Shown: positions 18,312 to 28,607 of the stretch, piece by piece
How the letters are laid out: every line of letters begins with the position of its first letter
Numbering within the stretch: the stretch's first letter is position 1
DNA from: Bacteroidota bacterium
Lineage (GTDB): Bacteria; Bacteroidota; Bacteroidia; Bacteroidales; SZUA-534
NCBI GenBank assembly: GCA_003250355.1
Contig: QKGS01000079.1
Location: forward strand, 79,092-143,091
DNA: 64,000 nucleotides
Reading direction: 5' to 3'
The notes under the pieces: generated by a model
The model's database searches: none
The model's input: the letters and a program-made list of their open reading frames with translations, nothing else
What the model was told of the DNA's origin: nothing
Translations under genes and position numbers: made by a program

Positions 18312-20015
18312 TTATTCTATACTAAAAACTAATCCTGAAGCATTTCTAATATTTAACCAAATTCCTCTGTTTTTCAATTCCTCGTAACTTACAATAATTT
18401 CATTTGCATCAAACAATGCCGACTTTAATACTATTTGCTCATTTTCAGATAATCCCATTAATTCTAATGCATTGTCGGGTATTTTTAAAATTATCGGATA
18501 ATTGTTATGCCTATCAAAATTTGTAACAACCAGCACCCTTTGAGTTACTGAATATCTCATAAAAGCATAAACAAAGTGCTTTGCTCCTGGATTTTCAAAA
18601 GAGTTACACCACATAAGATCATAGAAATCGCCTTTTGCTATTGCTTCATTCGAGATTGAATAATTAAGTATCTGCTTATATATATTTCTTAACTCTTTCT
18701 GCTCTGAACTTAAATCTCCACCATCGAATTTATGATTATTAACCCACTTAATATGTTCCGGTACATGAAAGTAATCAAATATAGTAGTTCGTCCATCGTC
18801 GCCGCTATATCCGGTTTCACCAAGTGCCGGCTCACCCACTTCCTGACCAAAATATGTCATTACAGGTCCCTGATGCAGCAATGCTGAAACTAACATTGCC
18901 GGTAATGTTAAATGTACATCACCGGTAAAGAAACGGCTTGCAAACCTTTGTTCATCATGATTTTCAAGAAACCGCAACATATGCTTATCAATTCCGTGAA
19001 GCGATTGCCAACAATTTGTAATTAAAGAAACCGGCGAACCATAACAAGTAATGGCTTTTATAGAATCGTACAGACCAACCTTATCGTACATATAATCGAA
19101 TCCACCTTTATATATGTATGAATTATAAAGATTGGGATTATAAACCTCTGCATAAAATTTCACATCGGGATACTGTTTTTTAACTTTTGCTATTGCATAT
19201 TCCCAAAACTCTACCGGTACCATTTCAACCATATCGCAACGAAAACCGTCAATATTTTTCGATGCCCAATACAACAATATATCAACCATTTTATTCCAAA
19301 GCGGAGGAGTTAAACTAAAATGACCATAGTTACCATTAGAATAATCTACACCATAATTCAGCTTAACTGTTTCGTACCAATCGTTCTTCTCGGGATATGC
19401 TGAGAATTGGTCATTACCTGTTGCCTTAGCCGGAAACTCATTATACTCAACAAAACCATCATTTGTCAAAATAGTACCAATATTATCGGGCAATACAAGA
19501 TTATGTCCCGGTATATAATAGAAGTCATTTTTAGGTGAAAATGACTTAGTAACATCATCATTAATACCAAAATTCCTTTCAGGAAATATATCTGATTTAT
19601 ATTCACGCGCAACATGATTTGGAACAAAATCAATTATCACTTTCATTCCTGCGTTATGTGTTCGTTCAACCAATTGCTCAAACTCTTGCATTCTATTTTC
19701 CGGTTTTTCAGCAATATCAGGATTTATATCATAATAATCGGTTATAGCATATGGTGAACCCGCTCTACCCTTAATAATCTTAGGATTCCCGGCCGCAATT
19801 CCTATATCGCTATTACCTTCACATCGTGCGTGCTCAATAATACCTGTATACCAAATATGAGTAATACCCAGTTTTTTTATCTCGTATAAAGCTTTAGTTG
19901 TAAAATGCGACATTTTTCCAACTCCATTTTCAGAACTACTTCCATGTATTTTTCCTGTACTATTAGTATTTCCAAATAAACGAGTGAAAACCTGATATAT
20001 TGAAATTTTTTCCAT
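18312..20015 (-). CDS. Alpha-amylase family (GH13) enzyme
   Basis: GH13 motifs VIIDFVPNHV, DGFRCDMVE, FYAEVY, FLENHDEQ. Confidence 0.9.
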   Translation of the reverse strand: MEKISIYQVFTRLFGNTNSTGKIHGSSSENGVGKMSHFTTKALYEIKKLGITHIWYTGIIEHARCEGNSDIGIAAGNPKIIKGRAGSPYAITDYYDINPDIAEKPENRMQEFEQLVERTHNAGMKVIIDFVPNHVAREYKSDIFPERNFGINDDVTKSFSPKNDFYYIPGHNLVLPDNIGTILTNDGFVEYNEFPAKATGNDQFSAYPEKNDWYETVKLNYGVDYSNGNYGHFSLTPPLWNKMVDILLYWASKNIDGFRCDMVEMVPVEFWEYAIAKVKKQYPDVKFYAEVYNPNLYNSYIYKGGFDYMYDKVGLYDSIKAITCYGSPVSLITNCWQSLHGIDKHMLRFLENHDEQRFASRFFTGDVHLTLPAMLVSALLHQGPVMTYFGQEVGEPALGETGYSGDDGRTTIFDYFHVPEHIKWVNNHKFDGGDLSSEQKELRNIYKQILNYSISNEAIAKGDFYDLMWCNSFENPGAKHFVYAFMRYSVTQRVLVVTNFDRHNNYPIILKIPDNALELMGLSENEQIVLKSALFDANEIIVSYEELKNRGIWLNIRNASGLVFSIE

Positions 20016-20021
20016 TGCTTT

Positions 20022-22046
20022 CTATGTTCGTTTTTTTCTTGCTCTTACACTTGGAACCGGCATTTTTTCAAGTACCAAAGCTGTTCGTGCGGGCAAATAC
20101 AACATAAGGTGTTGAAATTTTCCATCAACTGTTGTTAAATGTGTATTATAATCTTGCTGAGGATCTATTCTATCATAACCTCCATTCTTTCCCTCGTCGG
20201 AACTAAATATATACTTATATCGTCCTTCCATAACAGGAATTGAGTAATCGGTATAACTCCTAGTTGCATGAAAGTTAAATACAAACAAATATTTAGAACG
20301 GGTAAAAGCGATGACTTTATCGCCTTCATTACACATTTGTTGGTGCATTGGAAAAATATCGAGAAAACTATCTTTTGAAATAAGTTCTATCATCTGTTGA
20401 TCAAATTTATTTAAGAACTTATATTTAAGGTCTTCTCTATCTGTCAAACTCCATTGTCGGCGAGCATGTTTATAAGACCAACCATTACCTTCACGGGGAA
20501 AATCTATCCACTCCGGATGACCAAATTCATTTCCCATAAAATTGAGATAGCCTCCTCCGGCTGTTGCAACAGTAATAAGTCTAATCATTTTATGAAGTGC
20601 TATGCCACGGTCAATATCAAGGTTTTGATCATTAACCATCATATGGAAATACATTTCCTTATCCATTAACCTGAATGCTATTGTTTTATCACCAACCAAA
20701 GCCTGATCGTGAGATTCTACATACGATATAGTTTTTTCATCATCTCGCTTTGCTGTTAGCTCATGATATATTTGCCCCAAAATCCAATCTTCATCTAATC
20801 GTTCTTTAAGTGTTTTTATCCAAAAATCGGGTACACCCATAGCAAGCCTGTATGAAAAACCAACACCACCATCGGCTACTGAATTAGCAAGTCCGGGGTA
20901 GCCGCTCATTTCTTCAGCAATTGAAATTGGGTTACCGTCTAATTCCGACATTAAATCATTAGCAAGCATTAAGTAAGTTATTGCTTCTTCATCTTGTCCT
21001 CCATCGAAATAAAAATCGTATGAAGTAAAATCACGCCCTAACCCATGATCGAGATATAGCATACTTGTAACACCATCGAAACGATAACCGTCGAATTTAT
21101 ACTCTTCAATCCAAAATTTCACATTTGAAAGTAAAAAATGAAGCACTTCATTTTTTCCATAATTAAAACAATATGAATCCCACGCCGGGTGCTCTCCTCT
21201 GCCACCGGCATGAAAAAATTGATAACGTGTTCCATCAAGATTACCAAGACCTTCCATTTCATTTTTAACAGCATGAGAATGAACAATATCCATTATAACC
21301 TTAATTCCATTACCATGAGCCTCGTCAATTAAATGCTTCAGTTCTTCAGGAGTTCCAAAACGTGACGATACTGCAAAGAAATTTGACACATGATAACCAA
21401 ATGAACCATAATAAGGGTGCTCTTGAATAGCCATTAGCTGAATAGTATTATACCCTAATTTTACAATTCGCGGTAAAATATTTTCACGAAACTCATTGAA
21501 CGATGAGACTTTATGCTCCTCACCCCCCATTCCTATATGAGCCTCGTAAATAATTGGAGGATTCTGATTTTTAGGTTTTTCATACTTCCATTCATATGCA
21601 CTGTCGGGCATCCATAATTGCGCATCGAAACCATGAGTATTTTCATCTTGCACAACACGTCGTACCCACGCCGGAATACGTTCCCCCTCGCCTCCATTCC
21701 AATATACTTTTAGTTTGTATTTTTGTTCATGAGATAGATTTTTCAACCTTAATTCCCAAAAACCATTTATTTGTTCAAACTTATATTCATCAACAGGATT
21801 CCAATTTGAAAAATCACCAATAAGAAATACGGAACTTGCATTTGGCAACCATTCTCTTATTACAAACTCGTCGCCTTGCTTAAAACAACCCAATGTTTCG
21901 TAACCAGATGCATATTCTTTAAGTGATTTAAACTGCTTTCCTAAAAGCTCTTTTTTCTTTGCTTCATAGAGTTTTATTCGTTTTTGGATAGTTTCAGTAT
22001 GTGGTGATAACCACGGGTCCTTTTTTACAATTTTGGGTACAGACAT
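20022..22046 (-). CDS. glgB: 1,4-alpha-glucan branching enzyme, GH13_8-like (eukaryotic-type)
   Basis: CBM48-like N-terminus (FKQGDEFVIREWLPNASSVFLIGDFSNWNP), VIMDIVHSHAV, FDGYRFDGVTSMLY, ISIAEEMSG, YVESHDQALVGDKT. Confidence 0.88.
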   Translation of the reverse strand: MSVPKIVKKDPWLSPHTETIQKRIKLYEAKKKELLGKQFKSLKEYASGYETLGCFKQGDEFVIREWLPNASSVFLIGDFSNWNPVDEYKFEQINGFWELRLKNLSHEQKYKLKVYWNGGEGERIPAWVRRVVQDENTHGFDAQLWMPDSAYEWKYEKPKNQNPPIIYEAHIGMGGEEHKVSSFNEFRENILPRIVKLGYNTIQLMAIQEHPYYGSFGYHVSNFFAVSSRFGTPEELKHLIDEAHGNGIKVIMDIVHSHAVKNEMEGLGNLDGTRYQFFHAGGRGEHPAWDSYCFNYGKNEVLHFLLSNVKFWIEEYKFDGYRFDGVTSMLYLDHGLGRDFTSYDFYFDGGQDEEAITYLMLANDLMSELDGNPISIAEEMSGYPGLANSVADGGVGFSYRLAMGVPDFWIKTLKERLDEDWILGQIYHELTAKRDDEKTISYVESHDQALVGDKTIAFRLMDKEMYFHMMVNDQNLDIDRGIALHKMIRLITVATAGGGYLNFMGNEFGHPEWIDFPREGNGWSYKHARRQWSLTDREDLKYKFLNKFDQQMIELISKDSFLDIFPMHQQMCNEGDKVIAFTRSKYLFVFNFHATRSYTDYSIPVMEGRYKYIFSSDEGKNGGYDRIDPQQDYNTHLTTVDGKFQHLMLYLPARTALVLEKMPVPSVRARKKRT

Positions 22047-22245: not shown

Positions 22246-23448
22246 ATGGCGTTGACAAAAGAAAACATTGTTCAGTTATTGAAAGAAATTGATTTATTTT
22301 CTGAATTTAAAGACAAAACACTGCAACTATTTGCAAAGAATATGAATCGTGTTTTTCTTCACAAAGGTGACATACTATTCAGCAAAGGCGATATTGATAA
22401 TTCGCTATACATAATAAGTGAAGGATGCGTTGAGATACACGACAAAAATTATGTTTTCACCACACTCACAAGCAAACAATACTTTGGAGAATACACCTTA
22501 ATTGATTCAGCATGCAGGTCGGCAACCGTTACTGCAGTACACAACACTGAATTATATGAACTAAGTAAAGAAACATTTGAAGCTGTAACAAACAAGAATC
22601 CTGAGTTATGGAGGAACACACTTGTTGCAATGGTAAAACGTTTAAGAGATTACAATATTCTTGAAGAGAAGCTAACTTCGCGTACTATTGATGTTCAAAA
22701 AAAGAAATATCACATAGAAAAAGAAAAAGATTTTATTGACCAACAAAAGAAAAACCTAGAAGCAATAAATAATTCTAAAGACAAATTCTTAACAATAATA
22801 GCTCACGAACTAAAAAGCCCTCTATTTTCAATAAATGCATTAAGTGAAGACATTATTAGTCAATACGATAATATTGATAAAGAAAAGTGTCTGAACCAAA
22901 TTGAGCAAATCAAAAAATATTCAACAAATGCCTCAAATCTTTTAGAAAACCTACTGCAATGGGCAAGATCGCAAGCCGGAAGTTTGAAGATAAATTTTAA
23001 AAGAACAAATATTAATGATATAATTGTAGAAGTTATTGAGTTATATGAAGCTATTTGCCAATCAAGAAACATAACTATTGTTAATAACATTGGTAATGAA
23101 CACTTTGGTTATATTGATAGCGATATGATAAATACCGTTTTAAGGAATCTTATATCAAATGCAATACAATATTCATACGACAATAGTAAGATTGAACTCA
23201 ATATTGAAGAGGTGGCCGATATGCTAAATATTTCAATACAAGATTATGGGATAGGCATAGAAAAAACAGTAAAAGATACTCTTTTCAGCATTGACCAAAG
23301 ACCGGAAACAAATAATAAAGAAGAATCTTCCGGAATAGGGTTAGTTCTTTGTAAAGAGTTTGTTCTTAAAAATGGTGGAAGCATTTGGTTAGAAAGCACT
23401 CCTGGAAAAGGGACAACATTTAGTTTCAGCATTCCAAGAGCGTTATAA
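22246..23448 (+). CDS. Sensor histidine kinase with N-terminal cyclic nucleotide-binding (CAP_ED) domain
   Basis: cNMP-like LYIISEGCVEIHD...GEYTLIDSACRSATVTA; HisKA IIAHELKSPLFSI; HATPase N-box NTVLRNLISNAIQYS, G-box ESSGIGLVLCKEFV. Confidence 0.87.
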   Translation: MALTKENIVQLLKEIDLFSEFKDKTLQLFAKNMNRVFLHKGDILFSKGDIDNSLYIISEGCVEIHDKNYVFTTLTSKQYFGEYTLIDSACRSATVTAVHNTELYELSKETFEAVTNKNPELWRNTLVAMVKRLRDYNILEEKLTSRTIDVQKKKYHIEKEKDFIDQQKKNLEAINNSKDKFLTIIAHELKSPLFSINALSEDIISQYDNIDKEKCLNQIEQIKKYSTNASNLLENLLQWARSQAGSLKINFKRTNINDIIVEVIELYEAICQSRNITIVNNIGNEHFGYIDSDMINTVLRNLISNAIQYSYDNSKIELNIEEVADMLNISIQDYGIGIEKTVKDTLFSIDQRPETNNKEESSGIGLVLCKEFVLKNGGSIWLESTPGKGTTFSFSIPRAL

Positions 23449-23473: not shown

Positions 23474-25279
23474 ATGGCAAATTTAGGTTTTGCAATAAAA
23501 GCAAGTTTAGGGTTAATTCCGGGAACAGAAAAAATTGAAGAAAAGAAGAAATTACTCGAAGAAGAATATCAGAAACTTCTTGATTATTCAATTTCAAACG
23601 AACTAAAAGAGTACAATGAACTTGATGCTTATATCAACTCATCAGCATTTAAAACAAAAAAGAATGAAATTCTTTCATTAAACTATAAAACAACCGAAGA
23701 ATTTCAAAAAGAACAACGACTTGCAAAATTAAAAAAAGACAAAGGCATTATTAACTATTATAAAGTATTAGAATCATCAGATTTTAAACGCTTTACCAAT
23801 ATTGAAACATCAGCCGAATTAGAAGAGTTTAACAAACTGAATACATTAGTAAACTCAAAAGAACATAATTCAAAAAAAGAACAACTAGCGAATGTATTGG
23901 CAGAAGAAATAGCTAAAGAAAAAGAATTTACTACTCTTAAAAAAGATAAAGAACTTAAAAAGTATTTTAAATTCAAGGAATTAGCGTCATATAAAACTTT
24001 CCTTGAAATAGATGGCTCAGAAGAACTTGCTAATTACAAACAAGCAGAACAAGAAAACAACGATGAGTTCAAAACCCTTAAAAAAGAGAGCAGATTTAAA
24101 ACTTACTTCAAGTTTAAAAATTCAAAACAGCTGCAACTTATCAACAATGTTGAATCGTCGGATAAGCTAGAAAAATTCCAAGAACTGGAAGTTTATATTA
24201 CCTCTAATGAATTTACAAACAAAAAGGAATCGTTAAAATTTGAAAATTCAGAAGAATTTGAAAACGAAAAAAGATACAATGAATTAGCAAAATCTGATAA
24301 TCTGAAATTTTTTAATAAATACGGAATTTCAAAGCAATTTAAACTATTTGCCCAAACCAAAGCAAGCTCTGAATTACAAGAATATATGAAGTTGGAAGAG
24401 TTTGTTAAAACTAAAGAATTTATCGCCTACAAAGAGTATATGCTCGATAAGAATAAGTATTCAAAAAGCGAAGAAGCTGAGAGAGAAAACAGATATAATG
24501 AACTAAAGAAAAGCGATAATATTAAGTGGTATTTATCAATTAAAGACTCTGATAAGTTCAATTCATTAAAAGAATGGAACTTAACATTTGAAGATAATTT
24601 TAATACAGGTAAAATTGATGAAACCAAATGGATGAACAGTTTCTTTTGGGGCGAAATGTTAATAAAAGACCATTATGTAATTGCCGGAGAGAAACAAGTA
24701 TATACCAAGAATAAAAATGCTGTATTGAACGGTACAACAGTAAAACTTGTTACTAAAAACGAAAAATCGACCGGAAAGGTATGGCATCCTAAATATGGTT
24801 TTAATCAACAGGAATTTGACTATACATCGGGAATGCTAAGTACTGCAAATAGTTTCAGACAGCAATATGGAAAGTTTGAAGCAAAAATTAAAATAGACCC
24901 AACTTACCCGGTATATCAGGCGTTTTGGTTAAGAGGCGAAAAAATTGCTCCTGAAATTGATGTATTCAGATATAATATGTCAAAAAAGAATAAAATGGAA
25001 TTTATAAACCATATTGACAGCAATTCAAAAAACTCAATTGCTTCAAACTTAGGAGCAGGTGCTCTTACCGGCAAATACTTCATTTACACTTTAGAATGGT
25101 CGCCCAAAGAGATAAAATGGCTAATAAACGGAATAGAAGTACATAAAACCACACAAAATATACCGTCGGAACCAATGTACGTTCTTCTTTCGACAGGAAT
25201 AAAGCAAGATCCTAAAGGTGAAGCAATTAATTCAGAATTTGAAATAGATTGGGTACGCTGTTACGATAAAGCAGAATAA
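23474..25279 (+). CDS. GH16-fold protein with N-terminal charged helical repeats; catalytic motif degenerate
   Basis: GH16 features (LTFEDNFNTGKIDETKWM, YQAFWLRGEKIAPEIDVFRYN, YFIYTLEWSPKEIKWLINGIEVH, IDWVRCYDK); ~370-aa N-terminal repeats (LKKDKELKKYFKFKELASYKTF...); no obvious signal peptide. Confidence 0.8.
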   Translation: MANLGFAIKASLGLIPGTEKIEEKKKLLEEEYQKLLDYSISNELKEYNELDAYINSSAFKTKKNEILSLNYKTTEEFQKEQRLAKLKKDKGIINYYKVLESSDFKRFTNIETSAELEEFNKLNTLVNSKEHNSKKEQLANVLAEEIAKEKEFTTLKKDKELKKYFKFKELASYKTFLEIDGSEELANYKQAEQENNDEFKTLKKESRFKTYFKFKNSKQLQLINNVESSDKLEKFQELEVYITSNEFTNKKESLKFENSEEFENEKRYNELAKSDNLKFFNKYGISKQFKLFAQTKASSELQEYMKLEEFVKTKEFIAYKEYMLDKNKYSKSEEAERENRYNELKKSDNIKWYLSIKDSDKFNSLKEWNLTFEDNFNTGKIDETKWMNSFFWGEMLIKDHYVIAGEKQVYTKNKNAVLNGTTVKLVTKNEKSTGKVWHPKYGFNQQEFDYTSGMLSTANSFRQQYGKFEAKIKIDPTYPVYQAFWLRGEKIAPEIDVFRYNMSKKNKMEFINHIDSNSKNSIASNLGAGALTGKYFIYTLEWSPKEIKWLINGIEVHKTTQNIPSEPMYVLLSTGIKQDPKGEAINSEFEIDWVRCYDKAE

Positions 25280-25346: not shown

Positions 25347-26315
25347 ATGAATAATAAAGATAACTTCCGAATAGTATTTATGGGCACTCCCGACTTTGCA
25401 GTGGAAAGCCTTAAACAAATAATTAACAACAAATATAATGTTGTAGCAGTAGTTACAAGCCCCGATAAACCTGCCGGCCGAGGACAAAAAATTAGTGAAT
25501 CGGCTGTGAAACAATATGCCATTGAAAAAGGATTAAATATACTGCAGCCTACCAATTTGAAAGATTCTGATTTTCAGCTAGAATTAAAAAAATTAAATGC
25601 TGACTTAAATGTAATAGTTGCATTCAGAATGTTACCTGAATCGGTATGGAATATGCCCCCGTTGGGTTCAATCAACCTTCATGCATCATTACTACCCCAG
25701 TACCGTGGTGCTGCTCCAATAAACTGGGCTGTAATAAACGGAGATAAAAAGACAGGAGCTACTACTTTCTTTTTAAAACATGAAATAGATACCGGCAATA
25801 TACTATATCAAACTGAATTTGAAATTGGCGAAAATGATACAGCCGGAATAGTACATGATAAACTTATGGTTAATGGTGCTAATTTGCTTGTAGAAACGCT
25901 TGATAGAATACTTAGCGGAGATTACAAAGAAACGCCTCAGGATAATTTAATTGAAGGCGAACTAAAACATGCCCCAAAAATATTTAAAGAAGATTGTAAA
26001 ATAAACTGGCATAAAACCGGTCAAGAGATTCACAATCTTATACGTGGTCTAAGCCCCTACCCTGCTGCATGGTGTGAGTTAATATCGGAAAATCAAGACC
26101 CAACAACAATGAAAATTTTCGAAACTATATATATTAAAGATACTCACAATGAAAAACCGGGAACAATATGCACTGATGGAAAAAGAGAACTTAAAGTATG
26201 CTGTCCTAACGGATATATTAAAATAAACGAACTTCAAATAGCCGGAAAAAGGAGAATGAAAACCGAAGATTTTCTAAGAGGATTCGGTCAAATAGATGAG
26301 TATACCGCTAAATAA
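25347..26315 (+). CDS. fmt: Methionyl-tRNA formyltransferase
   Basis: FMGTPDFAVESL, SPDKPAGRGQK, NLHASLLPQYRGAAPINWAVINGDKKTGATTF. Confidence 0.96.
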   Translation: MNNKDNFRIVFMGTPDFAVESLKQIINNKYNVVAVVTSPDKPAGRGQKISESAVKQYAIEKGLNILQPTNLKDSDFQLELKKLNADLNVIVAFRMLPESVWNMPPLGSINLHASLLPQYRGAAPINWAVINGDKKTGATTFFLKHEIDTGNILYQTEFEIGENDTAGIVHDKLMVNGANLLVETLDRILSGDYKETPQDNLIEGELKHAPKIFKEDCKINWHKTGQEIHNLIRGLSPYPAAWCELISENQDPTTMKIFETIYIKDTHNEKPGTICTDGKRELKVCCPNGYIKINELQIAGKRRMKTEDFLRGFGQIDEYTAK

Positions 26316-26361: not shown

Positions 26362-26483
26362 ATTCTGCGTTACATAGAATTATAGGGTATATTTAATTAA
26401 TTAAACCCAAATTATTCAACCCGACAGTGTTAGTAATCAGTAACTATAATTTATTTCTGACACCGTTACTAAATGTAAAACAG

Positions 26484-28607
26484 ATGAAAAAAACTATTCG
26501 TTCCCTTTGCTTAACAGCATTGATTCTTTTTGTTGTAATAAATATTTATGCAGAGAAATTACCGGAATTTAAGCCTGGTAACATTGCATTTACAGCATTT
26601 TGTGCCGATGGTAATGACCATTTTGCTATTGTAGCACTATCAGAACTACCGGCCGATACAGCAATATATTTTACCGACAATGAACCCGATGCTACGGGTG
26701 GACTAGCAGATACAAATGAAGGTATACTCAAATGGAATACAGGCAATAACAATATTGCATCAGGTACAATTATTGTATTTGACAGTATAACAGTAAGTAA
26801 CAGAACTGTAAGCATTGGTTCGTTAACAAGTGTATCGGGTAATGTTAACTTAACGGCAACCGGCGATGCATTATTTGCATATATGGGTGCTTCGCCAACC
26901 GATATTAAAGTATGGCTTGCCGGTATTCAAAACTCGACAGGAAATGAAGGCGATTTAAAAATGACCGGGTTAACTCCCGGGTTAACTTTCATAAACTTTT
27001 ACACTACCGGCAGCCCCGATGGTGGTTTTTACTCCGGAGCAAGAGATAATAAATTGAGTTATGCCGAATATCTTCCAGAACTAGCCAATAGTTCAAACTG
27101 GACTACTGAAACATCGGACGGTAATCTGATTTTGCCCATATCAACCAATGGTTTTTCATTAAATCCATATTTAATTGATGTAGTAACCACTGACAATAAA
27201 GAGTATACAGCCGGTGATACAATAGAAATAACATGGGTGGCAAAAGGGTTAGACAGTGTTTCTTTATTTGTATACATTCAAGCCGAAAAAACATGGTCGC
27301 CTCTTGGTAACTTTAAAAACCGTGGCCTAGATTCAATAATAATTCCTGATGATGCGAGCTATGGCAATATGTATCAAATTAAGGTATCGTCAATAATTGA
27401 TACTACAATAAACGCCGTTTCAAATTATTTCGCCATATACGAAAAACCTTTAATATCATATAAAGCTTCAGAGATACTTAGGCCTTCAATAATGCTTGAT
27501 GCTGACACAAATATTATTTACAACGAAGCTGACAGTATTTATATAACGGGAACAAACTTAACCGGAGATATAATAATAACTGCGCCAAACAAACTACTTC
27601 TTTCATTTAATATAAATGGAGAATTCAAAGATTCTTTAAAAATCAGCAATGGCGGAGGTACTGTGACCGACAAAAAGATATATATTAAAGTTAAAGATAC
27701 CGATATTACATTTATTGAATTTGACTCTGTAAAAATAGAAAGCCCCAAAGCTTCAACCATATACAGAGCATTGTCGGCAACTAAAGTCTTCTTTTTACCC
27801 ATTAAAAAAATACAAACCCCCATAACTGGAGGTTCATCGCCTTATGAAAATAAATATGTATACACGTACGGTAATGTTACTGCCACAAACAATGAAACAT
27901 TTGTTATTCAGGATTATAACGAAAAAGCTCCTGAATATACAGGCATACACATTTATATGAATGAGAAAACAGTAAAAATTGAAGAAAATGATAACTTGTA
28001 TGTTCTTGGACAAGTTAAAGAAATTAATGGATTAACAACAATCTCATACTTTTATCACGATATAAATACTGAAATACCTCAAAATAAAAATATTCCAAAT
28101 ATAACCAGTGCAACAGCTAATACTGAACCATTTGAAAGTGTATTAATAAGAATTGAGAATGCAGAGTGTACTGAACCAAAAGATATAAATAACGAATGGG
28201 TAGCAACTGATATTGATGGAAATATTATAATTAATGATAGTTTTTACAACTTCACCCCTATTCTTAATAAAGTATACAGTATTACCGGTATTGTAGAATA
28301 TTCCAATAATGAATACTCACTAACCCCTCGCTATGCCATCGACATAGACGAAATAACTAACTCAGAAACATATATATACAATGACATAAAAATATACCCT
28401 ATTCCGACAAAAGACATTGTAAATATTGAAACGTCTGAAATAATTAAAACAATACTTATTTACAATATGAATGGAACTCTCTTAGAAACTGTAATACCTA
28501 ATAGCAGCATTACTCAAGTAAATATTGCAGAATATTACAGTGGAAAATACCTATTTTCTATACAAACAGAGCAAGAGATAAGAAATATTTGTGTAATTAA
28601 GTATTAA
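26484..28607 (+). CDS. T9SS type A sorting domain-containing secreted protein
   Basis: Signal peptide from MKKTIRSLCLTALILFVVINIYA; C-terminal IKIYPIPTKDIVNIETSE...GKYLFSIQTEQEIRNICVIKY type A CTD. Confidence 0.8.
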   Translation: MKKTIRSLCLTALILFVVINIYAEKLPEFKPGNIAFTAFCADGNDHFAIVALSELPADTAIYFTDNEPDATGGLADTNEGILKWNTGNNNIASGTIIVFDSITVSNRTVSIGSLTSVSGNVNLTATGDALFAYMGASPTDIKVWLAGIQNSTGNEGDLKMTGLTPGLTFINFYTTGSPDGGFYSGARDNKLSYAEYLPELANSSNWTTETSDGNLILPISTNGFSLNPYLIDVVTTDNKEYTAGDTIEITWVAKGLDSVSLFVYIQAEKTWSPLGNFKNRGLDSIIIPDDASYGNMYQIKVSSIIDTTINAVSNYFAIYEKPLISYKASEILRPSIMLDADTNIIYNEADSIYITGTNLTGDIIITAPNKLLLSFNINGEFKDSLKISNGGGTVTDKKIYIKVKDTDITFIEFDSVKIESPKASTIYRALSATKVFFLPIKKIQTPITGGSSPYENKYVYTYGNVTATNNETFVIQDYNEKAPEYTGIHIYMNEKTVKIEENDNLYVLGQVKEINGLTTISYFYHDINTEIPQNKNIPNITSATANTEPFESVLIRIENAECTEPKDINNEWVATDIDGNIIINDSFYNFTPILNKVYSITGIVEYSNNEYSLTPRYAIDIDEITNSETYIYNDIKIYPIPTKDIVNIETSEIIKTILIYNMNGTLLETVIPNSSITQVNIAEYYSGKYLFSIQTEQEIRNICVIKY

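Follow-up and report, generated by a model that had tools for sequence, protein, structure and literature searches.

What does a glycoside hydrolase family 16 (GH16) domain do when its catalytic acid is gone and an array of short helices stands in front of it? The question is raised by a gene located at 23474..25279 on the forward strand of a 64,000-nucleotide stretch (hereafter the window) of contig QKGS01000079.1, from the assembly GCA_003250355.1 of a Bacteroidales bacterium of the SZUA-534 lineage. It is an open reading frame with a 601-residue product, present in one copy in its source genome, and has full-length relatives in Salinivirgaceae and in many more Bacteroidales families. An interpretation made from the DNA letters alone (the sequence-only reading) had proposed a glycan-binding or scaffold pseudoenzyme, possibly intracellular. 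Our best reading, drawn from comparative sequence analysis, is that the gene represents a real, conserved, Bacteroidales-specific and vertically inherited family of GH16 pseudoenzymes. As for its mode of action, a cytoplasmic adaptor or scaffold appears to be the best-supported mechanism, with about an even chance of being correct, and a lectin role comes second.

The former active-site strand (24953..24970, forward strand, as are all protein features given below) is recognized from the translation and the family alignment by E494, D496 and R499, which stand in place of the GH16 motif ExDxxE. It reads P-E494-I-D496-V-F-R499-Y, with codons GAA at 24953-24955, GAT at 24959-24961 and AGA at 24968-24970. 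PEIDVFRY is in frame within the 601-residue product, and the Glu-to-Arg exchange at the acid/base position (E494-x-D496-x-x-R499) is as the sequence-only reading described it, save that the Arg codon had been placed one base off, at 24967..24969. Since at least two base changes separate AGA from a Glu codon and relatives conserve a basic residue here, mostly Lys, a single sequencing error is ruled out as the cause of the arginine.

This strand belongs to a GH16-like jelly-roll domain (residues 371-601, 24584..25276) delimited by PF00722, a profile match in the PDB and a domain model. PF00722 (Glyco_hydro_16) matches residues 417-594 (E=8e-15), and it matches 25 of 25 members of A2, the profile that we use for the GH16-like domain of the family; in the PDB, profile comparison retrieves the laminarinase 4dfs (E=5.4e-21). 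Because the GH16 part was poor in the full-length AlphaFold2 model, based on a seven-sequence alignment (predicted template modelling score, pTM, 0.39), the domain was modelled separately, which gave a pTM of 0.79, and a Foldseek search with this model returned 4dfs as the best match (E 1.6e-15, template modelling score 0.74). Judged by profile and predicted jelly-roll, the domain is a member of GH16 as a fold and sequence family. With GH16_3 laminarinases, such as LamA of Thermotoga petrophila/maritima (PDB 4dfs, 3azx) and ZgLamA of Zobellia (4bow), it shares the jelly-roll and its strand order, the core Trp/Phe/Gly residues and the C-terminal D-x-V-R-x-Y strand. Unlike these enzymes, the family lacks the catalytic Glu pair, the groove residues and a signal peptide, and it is fused to helical repeats.

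Family members were collected with profile A2 at an E-value cut-off of 1e-25; they score at least about 127 bits, and ordinary GH16 proteins at most about 113. The domain was detected in 105 of 393 Bacteroidales genomes, spread across the order, and in one of 396 genomes of a phylum-wide sample, namely the source genome of the window itself. Named relatives include Salinivirgaceae metagenome-assembled genomes (MAGs), some of them from the rumen, HGW-Bacteroidetes-4 and a marine Bacteroidales MAG. After removal of duplicates the set comprised 114 members, all from Bacteroidales, 113 of which could be scored. None of the 113 has an intact ExDxxE with both catalytic Glu residues, so that the pseudoenzyme part of the original proposal stands; judged by this motif, the family is not one of GH16 enzymes. 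The acid/base slot holds Lys in 69 and Arg in 17 members (86 together), Glu in 6, Ser in 5, Asn in 4 and other residues in the rest. The nucleophile slot is occupied by His (48), Glu (29) or Gln (26), together 103, and the assisting Asp slot by Asp (79) or Asn (21), together 100. In turn, each of the five outgroup GH16s included in the alignment reads E-D-E. Ordinary GH16s were also drawn from 40 related genomes; these retain ExDx(x)E, except for one partial alignment in L179 without the motif, and nearly all carry a signal peptide or lipoprotein-like leader. The genome of the pseudo-GH16 gene also encodes, far from it, an ordinary GH16 cluster with intact ELDINE and ELDVNE motifs (G000:C37:31486-33242). 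In some divergent members (L141-L144, taxonomic families f72 and f115), the acid/base Glu is back and the nucleophile is lost, e.g., RTNLLEMG and MISLLEMG.

A tree of 42 family members and 27 ordinary GH16s separates the two groups by a branch supported at 100/99, by which the single origin of the family is shown at the sequence level. The acid/base residue requires one change between the groups and 11 within the family, and the nucleophile at least 18, all of them within the family; Asp and Asn at the assisting slot interchange too. These counts are most simply read as a single, early loss of the acid/base Glu at the root of the family, followed by drift at the nucleophile, an order with which the single-base paths E-Q-H and E-K-R of the genetic code would agree. 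The arginine had been treated as a change peculiar to the 601-residue protein; instead, it appears to go back to a loss in the ancestor of a large family in which Lys prevails. Likewise, the nucleophile Glu and the Asp described as remaining are indeed present in this protein, but the nucleophile Glu is not a feature of the family, where this slot may hold His, Gln or Glu. The narrow set of residues tabulated above, [H/Q/E]-x-[D/N]-x-x-[K/R], might suggest that the old strand has become a new catalytic centre, i.e., that these are enzymes with changed chemistry. Yet, at least 18 interchanges of His, Gln and Glu on the tree, along with those of Asp and Asn, are unlike a catalytic set, and states lying one base apart are what drift under a mild polar constraint would give, which makes this explanation highly improbable.

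Over the whole gene, the ratio of nonsynonymous to synonymous substitution rates (dN/dS) is 0.05-0.09 for most of the close pairs that are not saturated, which holds for the repeats as well as for the domain, and 0.24 in one close pair; on these sequence comparisons, the family is shown to be under purifying selection. The loss of catalytic residues would also be expected of a decaying GH16 gene without present function, but such a pseudogene is rejected by this selection, and open frames in nearly all genomes, the wide occurrence in the order and the new invariant residues described below argue against it as well. We regard its probability as negligible.

Where the protein resides was addressed through its N-terminus. 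Residues 1-17 (MANLGFAIKASLGLIPG; 23474..23524), delimited by an alignment of N-termini, hydropathy and the predicted local distance difference test (pLDDT), have a counterpart in relatives with the conserved form MANFSFALRLAFGLLPKTEKIE, and are predicted to form a short helix at low confidence (pLDDT <50). Neither the 601-residue protein nor any of the 109 members with a complete start has a convincing signal peptide, as the sequence-only reading had judged for the former, and none of the 109 has a lipobox. Mean hydropathy over 12 residues within the first 40 exceeds 2.0 in two of them, as compared with values of mostly 2.1-3.2 in secreted GH16 controls. Transmembrane segments are lacking in 113 of the 114 members, and the remaining one has a possible stretch at a doubtful upstream start. 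The hydrophobic moment of the N-terminal helix is low (0.17-0.30), and we do not claim an amphipathic membrane anchor. Because export signals and transmembrane segments are absent, the location is probably cytoplasmic, in line with the intracellular placement considered earlier.

Ordinary GH16s, which are close sequence relatives, are secreted, and the family might accordingly be exported by an unrecognised route and serve as a surface glycan-binding protein. We consider this quite improbable: besides the lack of signal peptide and lipobox, the N-terminus is conserved in a non-signal form, and the gene has housekeeping neighbours with almost no genes for TonB receptors or of polysaccharide utilisation loci. 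Among 117 neighbouring genes there are two TonB plug domains, and SusD is absent from their 25 commonest Pfam families. The surface glycan-binding proteins of Bacteroidetes (SGBP/SusE-like) are lipoproteins whose genes belong to polysaccharide utilisation loci. The family resembles them in being non-catalytic, in coming from Bacteroidota and in its possible binding role, but it has neither the lipobox nor such loci around it.

In a comparison of 109 members with 14 ordinary GH16s, the core residues F376, W386, N415, G466, W542 and D592 are retained. Lost are the W and P of GxGxWPAxW (481/482), the W-P directly before the active-site strand, His513, His536, W563 and the GGxW loop (577-580), positions which we take to lie on the substrate-groove side from general knowledge of GH16 structures and not from a superposition. 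In these aromatic and His residues, too, the family is not what a GH16 enzyme would be. In turn, alignment with ordinary GH16s revealed a family-specific insert, W437-x4-G442-F443 (24782..24802), which falls in a gap in most of them; W437 and G442 are found in 113 of 113 members and F443 in 96%. Further family-conserved residues are Y401, R462, N552 and W593. Since the aromatic and His residues of the groove have gone together with the catalytic Glu, glycan binding at the canonical GH16 site seems unlikely, and the invariant W-x4-G-F insert likewise speaks against the glycan-binding half of the original proposal.

These losses also bear on an intracellular lectin, in which the dead GH16 domain would bind a cytoplasmic glycan (glycogen, a lipid-linked precursor or a nucleotide sugar) and the helical arm would cluster it. 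Glycan binding is a property of GH16 folds, and animals have non-catalytic binding proteins of the GH16 type, as set out in a GH16 subfamily survey (PMC6827312). These beta-1,3-glucan recognition proteins, or GNBPs (non-catalytic GH16_4), likewise have a GH16 domain with lost catalytic residues in non-hydrolytic use, as described in the same survey (PMC6827312). Unlike them, the present family is a single bacterial clade with a different partner domain and no export signal; the secretion typical of the glucan recognition proteins is thus not indicated by its sequences. A lectin would be favoured by the proximity, in five Salinivirgaceae genomes, of two opposite-strand genes, glgB and another of the amylase family, but this linkage occurs in one taxonomic family, and the loss of aromatic and His residues from the groove is family-wide. 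Altogether, we deem a lectin possible but rather unlikely.

The array of short helices spans residues 18-370 (23525..24583), as defined by the AlphaFold2 model, autocorrelation and a helix table. It consists of about 24 helices, most of them 10-13 residues long and each N-capped by S/D/N, and residues 40-350 have a pLDDT of mostly 85-95 in the full-length model. Identity autocorrelation reaches 0.20 at lag 116 and 0.19 at lag 69, above the 95% shuffle maximum of 0.162, and repeats start at residues 90, 159, 206, 275 and 348, i.e., with spacings of 69, 47, 69 and 73. The Lys/Glu-rich repeats noted over the first 370 residues or so are therefore real, but with a unit of about 69-73 residues and not the suggested period of about 90. 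Complete genes of the family encode 324 to 823 residues, from which we estimate a repeat number of between about one and about eight units. No Pfam family (TPR, HEAT, DUF349 and others) matches residues 1-370 above the cut-off, the S8_pro-domain being a sub-threshold hit (E=0.14); no solved relative was found in the PDB, and no other gene with the same repeats was found among 60 genomes. The short-helix repeat architecture appears to be new.

The gene follows, at 25 bp and on the same strand, a cyclic nucleotide (cNMP)-binding histidine kinase gene (22246..23448) with Pfam matches to cNMP_binding (1e-17), HATPase_c (3.9e-23) and HisKA (3.2e-05). The co-directional arrangement pointed out by the sequence-only reading is conserved in Salinivirgaceae (f1), where five genera have such a kinase gene 23-35 bp upstream and two lack it; the kinase is a candidate operon partner. 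Beyond this kinase, a divergent pair at 18312-22046 on the reverse strand encodes a glycogen branching enzyme (glgB) with CBM48 and a second alpha-amylase-family protein, an arrangement that recurs in five Salinivirgaceae genomes; a glycogen link via glgB was rejected as local gene order in one taxonomic family with no recurrence elsewhere. Downstream lies a methionyl-tRNA formyltransferase gene (25347..26315, forward strand; Formyl_trans domains), a neighbour that the taxonomic families f1 and f115 have in common. At 26427-28607 (forward strand), a 726-residue, apparently secreted protein is encoded whose C-terminal end resembles, by eye, a type IX secretion sorting domain.

Outside Salinivirgaceae, the neighbours are housekeeping genes (ATP synthase, lepA, fmt, gyrB). 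ATP synthase genes are found nearby in f7, f8, f15, f42 and f118 (L045, L050, L053, L105, L109, L087, L106 and others), and this vicinity may be the ancestral position of the gene. In four taxonomic families the gene is preceded by an OmpR-type kinase-regulator pair, with regulators 56-74% identical across families. In two of these four, a gene for a SiaC-family regulatory phosphoprotein (PF09345) comes behind the histidine kinase and OmpR-type regulator and precedes the family gene by 17-34 bp (L054:8177-8557, L111:3332-3736 and relatives). Receiver domains occur in 12 of the 117 nearby genes. The background is about 1,400 in about 140 Mb of 40 related genomes, i.e., about 1 per 100 kb, or roughly 1% of genes if 0.85-0.9 genes per kb are assumed. 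Counted per taxonomic family, 6 of 31 have two-component neighbours where about 2.3 are expected (p=0.02, with a background of only 107 genes). The two-component linkage is suggestive, and no stronger, because several families have an inherited gene order in common and the test background is small.

We propose that a single event in an ancestral Bacteroidales lineage deprived a GH16 jelly-roll of its acid/base Glu, that its sugar groove was lost afterwards, and that it was fused to an arm of one to about eight short-helix repeats. This arm would determine how far the protein reaches, or would mediate its assembly, be it self-assembly or assembly with a partner. The remodelled jelly-roll would dock a protein or other non-polysaccharide ligand, presumably by way of the conserved surface newly formed around the W437/G442/F443 insert. 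Co-transcription with the cNMP-binding histidine kinase is probable in Salinivirgaceae, where the protein may take part in the signalling output of that kinase. More broadly, one may tentatively picture an order-wide Bacteroidales family whose GH16 fold, carried on a short-helix repeat not known before, has come to serve signalling or assembly in the cytoplasm, with its output tied to histidine kinases; we hold this to be doubtful, though conceivable. Several points weigh against the scaffold and its signalling role: the two-component neighbours are different kinases in different taxonomic families and most families have none, four of the families with such adjacency have one common inherited gene order, and a new ligand pocket, for a glycan among others, may lie elsewhere on the domain.

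The repeat/pseudo-GH16 family appears to be undescribed so far. In the accessible portion of the GH16 subfamily survey, one or both catalytic residues are lost in about 9% of GH16_4, 0.7% of GH16_3 and 1% of other members, the roughly 1% outside animal and fungal GH16_4 forming no separate clade, and that portion holds no mention of a Bacteroidales pseudo-GH16 clade (PMC6827312). Our literature search found no paper on a GH16 pseudoenzyme or repeat-GH16 protein in Bacteroidales, which is weak evidence given thin coverage of subscription journals. If our reading is true, the presence of a strongly supported, conserved, apparently intracellular clade of pseudoenzymes in roughly one quarter of the sampled Bacteroidales genomes would mean that the GH16 fold has been reused for a non-digestive role. 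Moreover, as these genes pass the GH16 Pfam cut-off, gut and rumen surveys should then leave them out when counting polysaccharide-degrading enzymes.
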